This document shows, piece by piece, positions 1 through 6,400 of a stretch of 6,400 nucleotides of DNA; within the stretch, counting starts at the first letter, position 1; each line of letters starts with the position of its first letter. Source of the DNA: Bacteroidales bacterium (GTDB taxonomy: Bacteria > Bacteroidota > Bacteroidia > Bacteroidales > UBA932); contig JAKSKC010000080.1 of NCBI GenBank assembly GCA_024401945.1, positions 1-6,400 on the forward strand, in the 5' to 3' direction. The translations under genes were made by a program, and so were the position numbers. Below the pieces are notes generated by a model. That model was given only the letters and a program-made list of their open reading frames with translations. It searched no databases and was not told the DNA's origin.

Positions 1-655
1 TCATTGGATCGATGTACTGGCCGTCCTTGTAGACGCGCATGTTGCCGGATGCGATTTCATCTATGAGCATCACGTTGCCCTGGCGGTCGTAACCGAACTC
101 GAACTTGATGTCATACAGATCCAGGCCGCGGGTCTTGAGCTCGTCGGCCACGATGGCCGTGATGCGCTGGGTCTGCGCCTTTATGGCGTCGTACTGCTCC
201 TCAGTCATCACGCCGAGGGCCACGAGGGCGTCCTTGGTTACGAGAGGATCTCCTTTTTCGTCGTTCTTGAACGTTGTTTCCACGTATGCAGGCAGGTCAG
301 CACCCGGTTCGATGTATTCACCGTAGCGCCTTATGAAGCTGCCGACTGCCTTGAGGCGGCAGATCACCTCGAGTCCCTTTCCGAACACCTCGGCGGGAAG
401 CACCTCCATTGTGGTGTCCTTGAGGTTTGCGCTGACGAAGTGCGTCCTGATGCCGCTTGCATTGATTTTCTCGAAGAAATAAATTGACATCCTGAGGTTG
501 ACGTCACCTACACCTTCGATTGTGAGACCTACTGAATTCTCTCCCGGATCGAAGACACCGTCCTTGCCGGTGCAGTCGTCCTTGAATTTCAGGAGATAGT
601 TTCCGTTGTCAAGAGCGAAAACGTTTTTGGTTTTGCCTGTGTAAAGGAGTTCCAT
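1..655 (-). CDS. purC: Phosphoribosylaminoimidazole-succinocarboxamide synthase (SAICAR synthase), partial, C-terminus off the left edge
   Basis: This enzyme joins CAIR and aspartate with ATP to make SAICAR in cytosolic de novo purine synthesis. The visible part is 218 codons, starting [13 protein letters not shown] at 655 and still open at position 1; the family is usually about 235-300 residues, so little is missing. Recognisable elements are the N-terminal nucleotide-binding strand GKTKNVF (residues 7-13), LKFKDD (22-27), the first PurC signature around residues 95-112 ([18 protein letters not shown]), KNDEKGDP (130-137), and the second signature LYDIKFEFG (180-188) followed by [14 protein letters not shown] (197-210). 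The ATG at 655 suits the family, because GKTKN lies close to the N-terminus in all PurC proteins. It is transcribed divergently from the pyrimidine operon. No frameshift is seen. I recognise the family from these motifs and am confident of the call. Confidence 0.93.
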
Positions 656-783: not shown

Positions 784-1893
784 ATGAAAAAATTTGAAAA
801 TACACTCGGGGAACATTTCAGCGAAAGCGGGACAGACGTTATTGTTTGTCCCGCTTTCGTAGATGTCCACGTGCATCTGAGGGAGCCCGGATTCTCATAC
901 AAGGAAACCATATTTTCCGGCAGCCGCGCCGCTGCGGCGGGGGGATACCGCTGCGTCTGCGCTATGCCTAACCTGAATCCCGCCCCGGACAGCGTCGAAA
1001 ATATAGGGAAGGAACTTGACATCATCCGCCGCGACGCCTGTATCGACGTCCGTCCTTACGCCACCATCACCAAGGGCCGCAAGGGCCTTGAACCCGTCGA
1101 TATCGAATCCCTGGCGCCACTTGCCGCGGGCTTCTCCGACGACGGCAGCGGCGTGGATGACGACGGTCTGATGCAGGAGGCTATGGAACGTATTGCCGCC
1201 TGCGGCAGCATACTCGCGGCACACTGTGAGGACAAGCGCTACGGGGACACCCCCGAGAGCGAGTGGAAACAGATAGAGCGTGACATCAGGCTTTCCGAGA
1301 AGACGGGATGTCCGTACCACGTCTGCCACATCTCCACGGCATCCAGCGTCAGCCTGATAAGGGATGCCAGGAAGAGCGGAGTCAATGTCAGCTGCGAGAC
1401 CGCCCCGCATTATCTGATGCTCTGCGACAGGGATATTAAGGATGACGGAAGGTTCAGGATGAATCCTCCGCTCAGGACGTCGGCCGACAGGGAAGCCCTT
1501 CTGGAGGGTGTCCTGGACGGTACGATAGAGATTATCGCCACCGACCACGCCCCGCATTCCGCCGAGGAGAAATCCCGCGGCTATGCAGGCAGCGTAATGG
1601 GCATCGTCGGCCTTGAGACCGCATTCCCGGTGCTCTACACCGGTCTTGTGCGCAGGGGACTCATCTCCCTCGACAGGCTGATCGAACTGATGAGCATCAA
1701 CCCGGCCCGCCGTTTCAGGCTTGGGACGGAGTCGGTTTCGACGGTGAAGATCGACATCTCCAACCCATACGTGATAGACAGCGGCAGTTTCCTTTCCAAG
1801 GGACACTCCACACCTTTCGACGGGATGGAGGTATACGGGAGATGCCTTGAAACCGTGATTGACGGAAAAATAATTTACAAATATTCTATATGA
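784..1893 (+). CDS. pyrC: Dihydroorotase, type I, short CAD-like form
   Basis: This cytosolic metalloenzyme of the amidohydrolase superfamily cyclises carbamoyl-aspartate to dihydroorotate, the third step of UMP synthesis. It has 369 residues. The first signature is DVHVHLREP (27-35), giving metal ligands His29 and His31. Likely further ligands are Asp119 or Asp120 in FSDDG, where type I enzymes use Asp rather than carboxylated Lys, His147 in AHCED, His182 in VCHIS, and Asp254 in ATDHAPH. The second signature, ATDHAPHSAEEK (252-263), is complete. MNPPLR (226-231) and the C-terminal SKGHSTPFDGMEVYG segment are also typical. Most bacterial type I enzymes are about 425 residues with some 50 residues before HxH; here there are only 28. 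The start cannot be moved upstream because an in-frame TGA lies at 775-777. It is first in the operon and overlaps carA by 4 nt (ATGA). Confidence 0.93.
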   Translation: MKKFENTLGEHFSESGTDVIVCPAFVDVHVHLREPGFSYKETIFSGSRAAAAGGYRCVCAMPNLNPAPDSVENIGKELDIIRRDACIDVRPYATITKGRKGLEPVDIESLAPLAAGFSDDGSGVDDDGLMQEAMERIAACGSILAAHCEDKRYGDTPESEWKQIERDIRLSEKTGCPYHVCHISTASSVSLIRDARKSGVNVSCETAPHYLMLCDRDIKDDGRFRMNPPLRTSADREALLEGVLDGTIEIIATDHAPHSAEEKSRGYAGSVMGIVGLETAFPVLYTGLVRRGLISLDRLIELMSINPARRFRLGTESVSTVKIDISNPYVIDSGSFLSKGHSTPFDGMEVYGRCLETVIDGKIIYKYSI

Positions 1894-2966
1894 AAGCGAC
1901 AGGAAAGATGAAACTTGTCCTCGAGGACGGACGCGAGTTCACGGGCAATGCCTGCGGAGCTGCAGCCGCCGCTGTCGGGGAACTTGTTTTCAATACCTCT
2001 ATGGTGGGATATCAGGAGATTCTCTCCGATCCTTCCTACAAGGGGAAGATCGTTCTTATGACCTACCCTCCGATGGGGCAGTACGGAATCAACGACGACG
2101 ACTACGAGTCCAGGGCGGCGAGACCGGCCGCGCTCATTGTAAAGGAATGCTGCAACACCCCTTCGAACTACAGATATACCAGGACCCTCTCCGAGGAACT
2201 CGAGGAGCACGGGTTGCCTTGTGTGGAAGGGCTCGACACCAGGATGCTCACACGCATCATCAGGGACAACGGTCCTCTCAAAGCAGCTGTGGTGGATGAA
2301 TCCGTATCGAAGGAGGAGGCTCTCAGGATGATCGGGGAATGCCCGTCCGACAGCCGTCTGGCCGCCGGGGTGAGCTGCACCAAGAGATGGTTCTCGCGCA
2401 CTCCGCGCCACAGCTACGACGTGGTGGTGATCGACTGCGGTCTGAAGCACACCGTGGTGGAGGCTCTCAACAGGCGCGGCTGCAACGTGACAGTGGTTCC
2501 GTTCAACTGCCAGGCTTCCGAGATACTGGCTTTCAATCCGGACGGAGTGCTGGTGTCCAGCGGTCCGGGAGACCCTCATTCCATGACCGAGGTCATAGAA
2601 TGCGTTAAGGCCCTCAAGGGTAAGCTCCCGCTGGCAGGAACAGGTCTGGGACACAATATCATCGGTCTTTCCTACGGAGTGGACTCCGTGAAGCTCCCTT
2701 GCGGGAATTACGGAGGATCCCCGGTACGCCGCATATCTGACGGCAGGATAGTTACGGCGGAGCATTGCAACGCATACTGCTTCGACCCGGAATCCCTGAA
2801 GGGCAGTCCGCTCGAGCCGACATACACCATCATTCCCGGAGGAGGGAACGACGGTGTGCGCTGTGAGGCCGACAGGGTTATTTCGGTGCAGTTCTATCCC
2901 GAAGGAGGCCCCGGTCCCGGTGAAACCGACTTTTTCGATCAATTTATCAACCTGATGAAGAAATAA
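1890..2966 (+). CDS. carA: Carbamoyl-phosphate synthase small subunit with a degenerate, probably inactive glutaminase site
   Basis: CarA normally hydrolyses glutamine and passes ammonia to CarB. The 358-residue product has both usual domains. The N-terminal small-subunit domain (about 1-165) has FNTSMVGYQEILSDPSY, MGQYGIND and LDTRMLTR; the C-terminal class-I amidotransferase domain (about 175-358) has the SSGPGDP loop (223-229). The catalytic elements are changed. The nucleophile motif, normally GICLGHQ, reads GTGLGHN (250-256), so E. coli Cys269 is Gly252 (GGT, 2643-2645) and Gln273 is Asn256. QFHPE reads QFYPE (334-338), so His353 is Tyr336 (TAT, 2895-2897), while Glu338 is kept. The glutamine-contacting QNHGF segment reads EHCNAY (291-296). 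The frame stays aligned on both sides, so this is not a frameshift. Role inferred: a structural partner for an ammonia-using CPSase. ATG 1890 overlaps pyrC by 4 nt; ATG 1908, preceded by AGGAAAG, is an alternative start. Confidence 0.92.
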   Translation: MKATGKMKLVLEDGREFTGNACGAAAAAVGELVFNTSMVGYQEILSDPSYKGKIVLMTYPPMGQYGINDDDYESRAARPAALIVKECCNTPSNYRYTRTLSEELEEHGLPCVEGLDTRMLTRIIRDNGPLKAAVVDESVSKEEALRMIGECPSDSRLAAGVSCTKRWFSRTPRHSYDVVVIDCGLKHTVVEALNRRGCNVTVVPFNCQASEILAFNPDGVLVSSGPGDPHSMTEVIECVKALKGKLPLAGTGLGHNIIGLSYGVDSVKLPCGNYGGSPVRRISDGRIVTAEHCNAYCFDPESLKGSPLEPTYTIIPGGGNDGVRCEADRVISVQFYPEGGPGPGETDFFDQFINLMKK

Positions 2967-2969
2967 GCT

Positions 2970-5900
2970 ATGCCACGCAGAAAAGATATTAGGAAAGTGA
3001 TGGTGATAGGTTCCGGTCCTATAGTCATCGGCCAGGCCGCCGAGTTCGACTATGCCGGAACACAGGCCTGCCTTGCTCTCAAGGAAGAGGGCTATGAGGT
3101 GGTGCTGGTCAATTCAAACCCGGCTACCATTATGACCGACACGCATATCGCGGACAAGGTTTATATGGAGCCCCTCGACCTGGAGTATGTGGCCAAGATA
3201 ATACGTTACGAACGTCCTGACGCCATCGTGCCGGGACTCGGAGGACAGACTGGACTCAACCTTGCGGTAAAACTTGCAAAGAAGGGAGTGCTGGACGAGT
3301 GCCACGTCGAGATACTCGGGACTTCATTCCAGAGCATCGAGCAGGCGGAGGACCGCGAACTGTTCAAGGAGCTCTGCCTCAGTCTCGGGGAGCCCGTCAT
3401 CCCGTCAAGAATCTGCTACAGCTCGGAAGAGGCTGTCGAGACGGCGGAAAAGATAGGCTATCCTGTCGTGCTGCGCCCTGCATTCACCCTTGGAGGAACC
3501 GGCGGCGGATTCGCCAACAACGAAGCCGAACTTGTCGAGATGATGCGCAATGCGCTTGCGCTTTCACCTGTACACCAGGTCCTCATCGAGAAGAGCGTGA
3601 AAGGCTACAAGGAGATTGAGTTCGAGGTTATGCGCGACAGCAACGACACCGCCATAACCATCTGTTCGATGGAGAACGTCGACCCTGTGGGCATCCACAC
3701 CGGCGACTCCATCGTGGTGGCTCCTGTGCAGACCCTTACCGACAAGGAGTACGAGATGCTGCGCGACAGCGCCCTCAAGCTTATCAGGGCCCTCAGGATA
3801 GAGGGAGGATGCAACGTGCAGTTCGCACTCGACCCGCTGTCCAGTGCGTACTGCATCAGCGAGGTCAGCCCGCGCGTGGCGCGCTCATCCGCCCTTGCGT
3901 CCAAGGCCCGCGGTTTCCCTATCGCCAGGGTCACCGCCAAGATTGGGGTGGGACTCACCCTTGACGAGATAACCGTCGCCGGCGCACCTGCCTGCTGCGA
4001 ACCTTCCATCGACTATGTAGTCAGCAAGGTCGCGAGGTTCCCGTTCGACAAGTTCAGCGAGGCCACCAACGAGCTGGGTACCCAGATGAAGGCTACCGGC
4101 GAGGTGATGAGCATAGGAAGGACGGTTGAGGAGAGCCTCCTCAAGGCTGTCCGCTCGCTTGAGATCGGAGCATGCCACCTGCACAAGCGCAAATTCGAGC
4201 AGATGTCCGACCAGGAGATGCTCAAACATATAGTCAAGTTCCCGGACGACCACCTGTTCGCGATAGCCCAGCTCATACGCAACGGCGTGGACATCAAGCT
4301 GATATATGACGTCACCAAGATCGATATGCTCTTCCTCGAGAAGATATGCAGCATAGTCGCCACTGAGCGTGCCCTCGCGGCCTCACCTTTCGACACCGAA
4401 GTGTTCCTCGGGGCGAAGAAGAAGGGATTCAGTGACAAGTTCATAGGACAGCTCTGGGGAAAGACGGAGAAGGAGATGATAGAATGGCGCTGGGCCAGGG
4501 ACATCCGCCCGGTCTACAAATACATAGACAGCTGCGCCGCCGCCCGCAAGGCCGACGTCCCTTACTTCTACTCCACCTACGAGCAGGAGAATGAGAGCGT
4601 CGTCACCGACAGGGAGAAGATCCTTGTGCTCGGAGCCGGCCCTATCCGCATCGGTCAGGGAGTGGAGTTCGATTATTCCACCGTCCACGCCATCTGGGCC
4701 ATCCGCGAAGCCGGATACGAGGCCATTATCATAAACAACAATCCGGAGACGGTATCGACCGATTACTCCATTTCGGACAAGCTGTACTTCGAGCCGCTTA
4801 CGGTCGAGGACGTGATGAACGTCATCAGCCTTGAGAAGCCGAAAGGCGTGATAGTCACCCTCGGAGGCCAGACTGCGATCAATCTTGCAGGACCTCTGAG
4901 CGAGTTCGACGTTCCAGTAATCGGAACCCAGATACAGGCCATTGACAATGCCGAGGACCGCAAGCTCTTCGAGGCCATAATGCGCAAGACCGGCATCCCT
5001 CAGCCGGAGGCGAAGGCTGTGACCGACGTCGAGGAGGGGGTCAAGGCCGCGGCCGAGATCGGATATCCGGTGCTGGTACGCCCTTCATTCGTGCTGGGCG
5101 GCCGCGCGATGATGATAGTCGGCAACGAGGAAGCCCTCCGTCACTATCTCCACAACGCCGTTGAGATAAACGAGAATTCCCCTGTCCTCGTGGACAAGTA
5201 CATTATGGGAAGGGAGAGCGAGGTGGATGCAATCTGCGACGGGAAGAGCGTTTTCATCCCGGGTATTATGGAGCACGTGGAGCGCACCGGTATCCATTCC
5301 GGAGACTCCATCAGCGTCTACCCTTCATTCTCGCTCAGCGACAAGGTGAAGGAACGCATCATCGACTACACCTGCAGGCTCGGACTCGAGATAGGCATCG
5401 TGGGTCTTTTCAATATCCAGTTCATTGTGGACGGCAACGACGACGTCTACATCATCGAGGTCAACCCGCGTTCCTCAAGGACGGTTCCTTTCCTGTCCAA
5501 GTCAACCGGGGTGCCTATGGCGAAGATAGCCACTATGGTGATGCTGGGACATTCCCTCGAGGAGCAGGGCATACACGACGTGTATTTCCCTGAGAGGAAA
5601 CGCCATTACGTCAAGACACCGGCATTCTCGTTCGGAAAGATCAAGGGCATAGACACCTATCTCTCACCTGAAATGAAGTCCACCGGCGAGGCCATCGGTT
5701 ATGACGACACCCTCAACAGGGCCCTCTACAAGTCATTGCAGGCTTCCGGCATGAACGTGGTCAACTACGGTACCATATTCTGCACCATCGCCGATGCCGA
5801 CAAGGAGGATGCGCTTCCTCTGATCAGGCGCTTCTACAACCTCGGATTCAACATCGAGGCCACGAAGGGAACGGCAATGTTCCTCAAGAAGAACGGTATC

Positions 5901-6158
5901 AAGACCAGGAGCCTGGGCAAGATAAGCGAGGGCAGCGACGATATAATCTCAGCGCTCAGGCAGGGACACGTCAGCTACGTGATCAACACCATCGACATAA
6001 ACCAGCACAGCACGCGTCTGGACGGATATGAGATCAGGCGCGCCGCCGTGGAGAACAACGTCACCATCTTCACGGCGCTTGACACCGTGAGGGTTCTGCT
6101 CAATGTTCTTGAAGAGATAACATTCGGTATATCAACCATAAACGCTGAATATGCTTAA
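2970..6158 (+). CDS. carB: Carbamoyl-phosphate synthase large subunit
   Basis: CarB makes carbamoyl phosphate from bicarbonate, ammonia and two ATP. At 1062 residues it is full length (E. coli 1073). Domain order is a carboxyphosphate ATP-grasp half (about 1-400), an oligomerisation domain (401-545), a carbamoyl-phosphate ATP-grasp half (546-925) and a C-terminal MGS-like allosteric domain (926-1062). The halves show the expected internal duplication: [17 protein letters not shown] (14-30) against [16 protein letters not shown] (555-570), GGTGGG (175-180) against GGRAMM (710-715), and GIHTGDS (241-247) against GIHSGDS (774-780). In the second half metal ligands Gln817, Glu830 and Asn832 are present. 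In the first, Gln284 and Glu298 are present but Ser300 replaces the usual Asn, giving [10 protein letters not shown] where EVNPRVSRSS is normal. The allosteric domain keeps TKGTA (965-969), Lys984 and INT (1005-1007), so UMP-type control is plausible. It starts 3 nt after carA stops. Confidence 0.96.
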
Positions 6159-6400
6159 GGATTCCTATAGGATAGCATACAATGTTCCCATAGCCGACAG
6201 GGTATGGAGGATGAGGCTCCTCGAGGACACATCCGCCTATGAGAGGGGAGGACAGTACGCCGACGTCGCGGTCGACGGCTTCTTCCTGGTGTTGGCCTAC
6301 ATGGCCGCGAATCTCCTGCGCTTCGACCTGCAGCCTCCGCGGTGGGGCTGGCGGGTGACGGCCTGCGCAAAGAGATTGCGCACCTCGCGGGCGTTCGCAA
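6151..6400 (+). CDS. pyrK: Probable dihydroorotate dehydrogenase electron-transfer subunit (PyrK-like), N-terminal fragment
   Basis: The ATG at 6151 overlaps the last codons of carB by 8 nt, and the frame stays open to the window edge (83 codons). The first 45 or so residues ([20 protein letters not shown], then [21 protein letters not shown]) resemble the FAD-binding beta-barrel start of PyrK, which carries electrons from dihydroorotate oxidation towards NAD. The typical family pattern there is xGDTS, PGQFVNI, LDGFFLRRPIS. The expected RRPIS flavin motif does not follow: after FFL (to about 6285) the frame reads [14 protein letters not shown] and then a Trp/Arg-rich stretch unlike PyrK, in DNA of about 68% G+C. 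The gene may be frameshifted, disrupted or misassembled there, or be a divergent relative. Its place after pyrC-carAB supports a pyrimidine role. I am fairly confident of the start and the PyrK likeness, not of an intact product. Confidence 0.55.

Follow-up and report, generated by a model that had tools for sequence, protein, structure and literature searches.

A CarA subunit with an eroded glutaminase and a predicted ammonia-fed carbamoyl-phosphate synthetase in gut Bacteroidales

The window, by which we mean the whole 6,400-nucleotide stretch that was analysed, carries purC on the minus strand, cut by the window edge, followed by pyrC, carA, carB and the start of pyrK (Table 1). The CarA protein, the small subunit of carbamoyl-phosphate synthetase (CPSase), matched the Pfam families CPSase_sm_chain and GATase, scored 335 bits against TIGR01368 (curated cut-off, 307.35) and retains the fold of E. 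coli CarA. In many loci pyrC, carA and carB come in this order, and frames of pyrK, pyrD, pyrF and pyrE size follow them. Pfam analysis of one stretch of a related genome (G009) identified dihydroorotase, a PyrK-type Fe-S protein, dihydroorotate dehydrogenase, OMP decarboxylase, aspartate carbamoyltransferase with a PyrI-like C-terminus, IMP dehydrogenase and a short GMP synthase. At L213:12502-13590, aspartate carbamoyltransferase and a PyrI-like metal-binding C-terminus form a single chain. The frame that starts at 6151 in the window is PyrK-like, as judged by eye, until about position 6283, where the likeness is lost while the frame stays open. A Pfam search with the 83-residue frame 6151-6399 gave no match. 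A misassembly or rearrangement after about 6283 is possible, and our impression is that the remainder of the frame resembles a membrane segment.

Table 1. Positions of genes and sequence features in the window.
Feature	Position	Strand	Basis or remark
purC (SAICAR synthetase), divergent, cut by window edge	2..655	-	ORF and Pfam
pyrC, dihydroorotase	784..1893	+	4-base overlap with carA start; ORF, Pfam and curated profiles
carA, CPSase small subunit, eroded glutaminase, 358 aa	1890..2966	+	uninterrupted frame
Nucleophile-elbow motif GTGLGHN, CarA residues 250-256	2637..2657	+	alignment to E. coli CarA
One-residue deletion (E. coli N294) beside kept tunnel residue G293	2715..2720	+	alignment
Remodelled glutamine-binding loop EHCNAY (E. 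coli A309-F314)	2760..2777	+	alignment
QFYPE motif	2889..2903	+	Tyr336 at His353 position; Glu338 kept
carB, CPSase large subunit	2970..6158	+	Pfam and curated profiles; catalytic and ammonia-gate residues kept but one
CarB Ser300 (AGC) at E. coli Asn301 position, N-terminal ATP-grasp site	3867..3869	+	alignment
pyrK start, dihydroorotate dehydrogenase electron-transfer subunit	6151..6283	+	

The original prediction was that this CarA has lost the catalytic Cys and His of its glutaminase. Alignment to E. coli CarA confirmed both substitutions: the position of Cys269 is occupied by Gly252 (GGT, 2643-2645) and that of His353 by Tyr336 (TAT, 2895-2897). E355 is retained as Glu338, so that only the Glu is left of the Cys-His-Glu triad of a glutamine-hydrolysing CPSase. 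The triad losses were only part of the change, and the first reading of the sequence had missed the rest of it. The pocket also carries Asn256 in place of E. coli Gln273 (Q273N), together with A309E, Q310H, N311C, H312N, G313A and the deletion of N294. Of the glutamine-binding residues of E. coli CarA, S47, G241, G243 and L270 are kept, but Q273, N311, G313 and F314 are replaced, the last by Tyr (F314Y). The deletion of N294 lies directly beside G293, whose role as a tunnel residue is given in the CPS1 structure paper (PMC4655335).

We compared 76 CarB rows, 30 of which, the window's included, pair with an eroded CarA. Twenty catalytic, metal-binding and gate positions were checked, and at 18 of them every one of the 76 rows has the E. 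coli residue. The other two positions vary through N301S, which is unique to the window among these rows, and A251C, found in six CarBs that all accompany an intact CarA (L017, L029, L043, L048, L066 and L073). The ammonia-gate residues C232, A251 and A314, as named in PMC4655335, were retained in all 30 rows with an eroded CarA. Judged by its residues, the window therefore appears to encode an inactive glutaminase next to intact synthetase sites, the combination that marks an ammonia-dependent CPSase, with CarB N301S as the exception. This substitution may weaken the window's own CPSase.

The erosion of CarA is shared by many relatives. Among the 120 nearest CarA proteins, that is, the window's own and 119 others at 52-63% identity, 39 retain Cys269, 12 retain His353 and 9 retain the two together, so that Cys, His or both were missing in 111 of 120. 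In a genome scan that used one genome per species, Cys, His or both were missing in 32 of the best 80 loci among the matches listed. All 32 were Bacteroidales-type records, with titles naming Bacteroidales or Bacteroidia, Candidatus Cryptobacteroides (which belongs in Bacteroidales), Candidatus Cacconaster, Alistipes, Tidjanibacter and Rikenellaceae, and their sources, where given, were mostly the rumen, omasum, hindgut or faeces of goat, yak, sheep, buffalo, cattle, deer and horse. A further 21 of the best 80 loci were labelled Clostridia or other Firmicutes, and Cys and His were intact in all of them. These 21 were left out of the genome-wide searches described below, for which genomes of Bacteroidales with an intact CarA served as controls. 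The relatives are metagenome-assembled genomes that may be incomplete, and every absence reported for them is provisional. Sequencing error or chance was rejected as an explanation of the substitutions because many separate assemblies are changed at the same sites, across the clade.

In a quick tree of 209 CarA rows, many inner branches of which are weakly supported, the minimum number of changes was 17 for Cys, 7 for His and 8 for the state "both present". The window CarA sits on a long branch (0.75) in this tree. We then defined 127 clade rows of the window's kind by Gly at position 356. N294 was a gap in 127/127 of these rows and Asn in 52/52 intact rows, and within the clade F352 (98%), E309 (87%), H310 (83%) and Y353 (73%) were prevalent. 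The residue pairs at positions 269 and 353 were C/Y (32 rows), G/Y (27), S/Y (14), A/Y (12), G/C (10), N/Y (7), C/H (5) and S/C (5), plus rarer ones. All five C/H rows already lack N294 and carry H310, and four of the five carry E309. Because these rows share the altered pocket, it is suggested that remodelling of the pocket preceded the loss of the triad, although the C/H rows do not branch basally in the tree. The CarAs of L034 and L036 form a separate lineage with Asp269, Gln353 and Asp355, in which all three triad residues are changed. An entropy contrast between 143 eroded and 57 intact rows found relaxed sites at 353, 269, 272, 273, 290, 312 and 313, but also outside the pocket. Given that the intact set is narrow (effective size 4.0 vs 51.2), this contrast is only a pointer.

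The expectation that the substitutions would mark a clade under purifying selection was borne out. In 12 close pairs of eroded CarAs from five groups of relatives, none of which includes the window itself, dN/dS was 0.033-0.089 over the whole of CarA and 0.034-0.132 over the glutaminase domain alone. Relative to the N-terminal domain, the glutaminase domain diverged faster where CarA is eroded (10,101 pairs, median ratio 1.30), whereas intact CarAs showed no such excess (1,539 pairs, median ratio 0.98). The dead glutaminase domain of CarA thus keeps its fold and continues to be under purifying selection.

We also looked for signs of the ample ammonia with which the organism had been inferred to live. 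AmtB had no match in 29 of the 32 eroded-CarA genomes (3/32 have it), and none over the cut-off in 24 of 27 intact-CarA relatives (3/27 have it). Absence of AmtB as a sign of ammonia-rich life was dropped, since the intact-CarA relatives lack this protein about equally. Going by their record titles, these relatives also come from the same gut types, and an ample supply of ammonia can therefore be seen as at most permissive. Glutamine synthetase was found in 27 of the 32 eroded-CarA genomes, and glutamine is therefore made by, or available to, most of these bacteria.

A second, intact carA in the same genome had been named as a finding that would weaken the physiological interpretation. The outcome was mixed. 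Twenty-four of the 32 eroded-CarA relatives had a single copy, seven had an intact second CarA (G001-G004, G016, G028 and G029), and one had an eroded second CarA (G025, L036). The second carAB of G002 adjoins the large subunit of glutamate synthase, and similar frames were seen by eye in G003 and G004. In L081-L088, the second CarA has a CarB of its own beside it. Among the 27 intact-CarA Bacteroidales genomes, 25 had one carA match, G050 had two, and G042 had one plus a match to a 27-residue fragment.

The loss in CarA stands, but it is not the isolated peculiarity that it had been taken for, as other amidotransferases of nucleotide synthesis have lost glutaminase parts in the same genomes. 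The clearest case was GMP synthase (GuaA). All or part of its glutaminase domain was absent from a GuaA in 21 of 26 scored eroded-CarA genomes, as compared with 0 of 25 intact-CarA genomes, and 16 of those 21 had no other GuaA, leaving 16/26 without a full one. In G005-G010 the sole GuaA is an ATP-pyrophosphatase protein of about 319 residues from which the glutaminase domain is absent, and G001-G003, G029 and G032 have a similar short GuaA alongside a full one. Ten further eroded-CarA genomes encode a 435-residue GuaA in which the glutaminase part is cut near the nucleophile elbow, and five of the 26 had nothing but a full-length GuaA. In the 25 controls, GuaA had Cys and His in 24, and the remaining one was broken by a frameshift, one of its pieces carrying the Cys motif. 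No scorable GuaA turned up in six eroded-CarA genomes (G011, G012, G014, G015, G019 and G028), and the GuaA fragments of G014 and G019 begin like the truncated type.

A raw Fisher test, which ignores kinship, gave p = 6.9e-10 for the association between CarA and GuaA. A phylogenetic test on 51 rows, which used the CarA tree and not a species tree, found two pairs on supported branches and four on all branches, and the sign test was not significant. The association is thus strong by genome count, with few independent lineages behind it. A binning error that joined the two genes is unlikely, because the eroded CarA and the shortened GuaA are on one contig in seven genomes (G005, G006, G009, G018, G026, G027 and G031). 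A search for the class-I glutaminase family PF00117 in G005, G006, G008, G009 and G012 gave no match besides the eroded CarA. The same search gave one further match in G007 (a 296-residue frame) and two in G010 (a 202-residue HisH-like frame and a 270-residue frame). Each of the 120 proteins closest to the short GuaA is 319 residues long. One of them, the glutaminase-less GuaA P0206, comes from a contig of 39,786 bases and shares 86% identity with its short counterpart in G009. The window's contig also has 39,786 bases, and from this equal length we take it that P0206 is probably encoded on the window's own contig.

Erosion was also found in CTP synthase (PyrG). Its triad was eroded in 10 of the 20 eroded-CarA genomes with a PyrG and intact in the other 10, as compared with 0/25 eroded in controls; the PyrG of G020, which is interrupted by a stop codon, was scored from the longer piece. 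PyrG had no match in 12 of 32 eroded-CarA genomes, including all of G005-G012, and was found in 25 of 27 controls. In PurF, the N-terminal Cys is replaced by Ser in 11 eroded-CarA genomes (G010, G011, G012, G022, G026, G030, G031 and the second PurF of G001-G004), whereas all 11 orthologues from intact-CarA genomes, at 63-71% identity, start with ECGVFG and have the Cys. The Cys is kept in the PurF of G018 and G027 and in the first PurF of G001-G004. A PurF of the MxGFFG type, without the N-terminal Cys, was found in G013, G014, G015, G020 and G024. This type was not counted as a specific marker, because it is also present in ten intact-CarA genomes (L228-L236 and L238). The PurF-like proteins of these ten start with MGGFFG, and the genomes are labelled Muribaculaceae, Muribaculum and Porphyromonadaceae. 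Use of ammonia by PurF may thus be older and wider than the lineages with an eroded CarA. G005-G009 had neither a class-II glutaminase match (PF13522) nor a PurF- or GlmS-like match to the PurF query.

The idea that all glutamine amidotransferases were lost was rejected, since motifs are kept in PurL, HisH, a TrpG-type protein, GlmS and AsnB. The PurL motifs were intact at eight loci with an eroded CarA, the Cys motif of HisH was kept in 13 genomes (with His-Pro-Glu seen in 12 of them), and motifs were kept in the TrpG-type protein of one genome (G002), in GlmS of eight and in AsnB of three. These five names were read by eye, and one example of each was confirmed by NCBIfam.

Taken together, these data make it quite probable that the window encodes an ammonia-fed CPSase with a structural CarA, and that this belongs to a wider move from glutamine to ammonia in nucleotide synthesis. 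On this reading, carAB would supply the CPSase for pyrimidine synthesis in an uncultured gut bacterium of the Bacteroidales. CarA would have lost glutamine hydrolysis because neither nucleophile nor base remains and the pocket for glutamine has been altered. CarB requires CarA, and CarA would be retained for its structural, and probably regulatory, part in the complex, much as CPS1 retains its dead domain (PMC4655335). CarB would then join free ammonia to carboxyphosphate, and the carbamoyl phosphate would pass to aspartate carbamoyltransferase, the last gene of this operon in G009. In these lineages CarA, GMP synthase, CTP synthase and PurF would each lose glutaminase activity or the domain itself and come to depend on ammonia. 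The original prediction of a CarA that cannot hydrolyse glutamine, is kept as a structural subunit and belongs to an ammonia-fed enzyme is consistent with the clade-wide loss, the low dN/dS, the kept fold and the conserved CarB. Points against it are the 32 of 127 clade rows in which Cys is kept and only His is changed to Tyr, and the 5 of 127 in which both are kept. N301S in the window's CarB, the intact second CarA of seven genomes, the intact PyrG in 10 of 20 and the sole full GuaA in 5 of 26 eroded-CarA genomes, the similar AmtB counts, the few independent lineages behind the GuaA association and the glutamine synthetase of 27 of the 32 genomes also weigh against it.

A different idea is that hydrolysis of glutamine, or of another amide, goes on in the remodelled pocket by means of new residues. 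E309 and H310 are both new and conserved in the clade, and Cys269 persists beside Tyr353 in 32 of its rows. We nevertheless consider this highly improbable, as position 269 varies (G, C, S, A, N, Q), the glutamine-binding residues vary as well, and GuaA and PyrG of related genomes lose glutaminase residues too. It is also unlikely, if less strikingly so, that the ammonia is still derived from glutamine in trans, with CarB using either the intact CarA that a second carAB encodes or some unknown glutaminase bound to it. The seven genomes with a second, intact triad favour such a supply, but the 24 with no second carA and the one with an eroded second copy speak against it, insofar as these assemblies are complete; the eroded CarA is the sole PF00117 match in the five genomes named above, and the second CarAs of L081-L088 adjoin CarBs of their own.

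Plain decay, in which the operon is becoming a pseudogene and the organism salvages pyrimidines, has several observations in its favour: N301S in the window CarB, the long branch of the window CarA, the end of PyrK likeness near 6283, and the PyrG not found in G005-G012. Still, the carA and carB frames are open throughout, dN/dS is well below 1 in the related eroded pairs (none including the window), the other eroded lineages have retained the catalytic residues of CarB, and the operon order is conserved over many loci, which makes decay very unlikely. Returning to the ammonia-fed CPSase, we tentatively propose a more specific scheme, which we regard as somewhat less likely than not. In several lineages of uncultured gut Bacteroidales, amidation by CPSase, GMP synthase, CTP synthase and PurF could have moved to free ammonia, with the glutaminases lost one by one and glutamine kept for PurL, histidine and amino sugars, and the rebuilt CarA pocket (E309, H310, Y353, G356 and the loss of N294) may be an inlet for outside ammonia to the old tunnel.

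CPSases that use only ammonia are known in animals. According to the CPS1 structure paper, every CPS type except CPS1 uses glutamine (PMC4655335), and our literature search of titles and the beginnings of abstracts turned up none that describes a bacterial clade whose CarA glutaminase is dead. Such a clade would break the rule that all but CPS1 use glutamine. The two systems are alike in that animal CPS1 keeps a dead glutaminase-like domain (Ser for Cys in human CPS1), takes ammonia as its nitrogen source and has an intact CarB-like synthetase (PMC4655335). Animal CPS1 differs in being a single mitochondrial polypeptide that is activated by N-acetylglutamate and serves the urea cycle, whereas the window's pyrimidine operon encodes the small and the large part as two subunits, with a gene for each (carA and carB) and no fusion into one chain. 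Furthermore, His is lost in the window as well as Cys, and several losses occurred within one bacterial order. Compared with E. coli CarAB, the subunits are orthologous, with the same fold and, N301S apart, the same CarB catalytic residues, but CarA lacks the Cys and His needed for catalysis, together with several of the residues that bind glutamine, and has a one-residue deletion beside the tunnel residue G293.

Other synthetases of the amidotransferase type offer parallels. Single-domain NAD synthetases are bacterial enzymes without a glutaminase, for which one report argues that ammonia is the physiological substrate; it holds that the single-domain form came first and gained its glutaminase afterwards (PMC3376133), whereas here the intact forms in relatives point to loss. 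The archaeal two-subunit GMP synthetase likewise has an ATP-pyrophosphatase without a fused glutaminase, and this module can use external ammonia in vitro (PMC10526850). It differs in having a separate glutaminase subunit, whereas G005, G006, G008 and G009 gave no class-I glutaminase match besides the eroded CarA.

The clade would offer many natural stages of loss (both residues kept in a changed pocket, His lost, Cys lost) for the study of tunnels, subunit coupling and ammonia entry. The changes in GMP synthase, CTP synthase and PurF would allow a direct test of where rumen and hindgut bacteria obtain the nitrogen for their nucleotides, and would bear on the ammonia needs of these bacteria and perhaps on the difficulty of growing them. 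The shift across several amidotransferases would be the larger finding if borne out. The comparison also exposed errors of annotation, in which proteins with an eroded glutaminase, or none, are named as glutamine-hydrolyzing. P0161 and P0196, for example, are glutaminase-less GuaAs of 319 residues that carry the NCBI name glutamine-hydrolyzing GMP synthase, and the NCBIfam models for glutamine-hydrolyzing enzymes accepted one truncated GuaA and one eroded PyrG.
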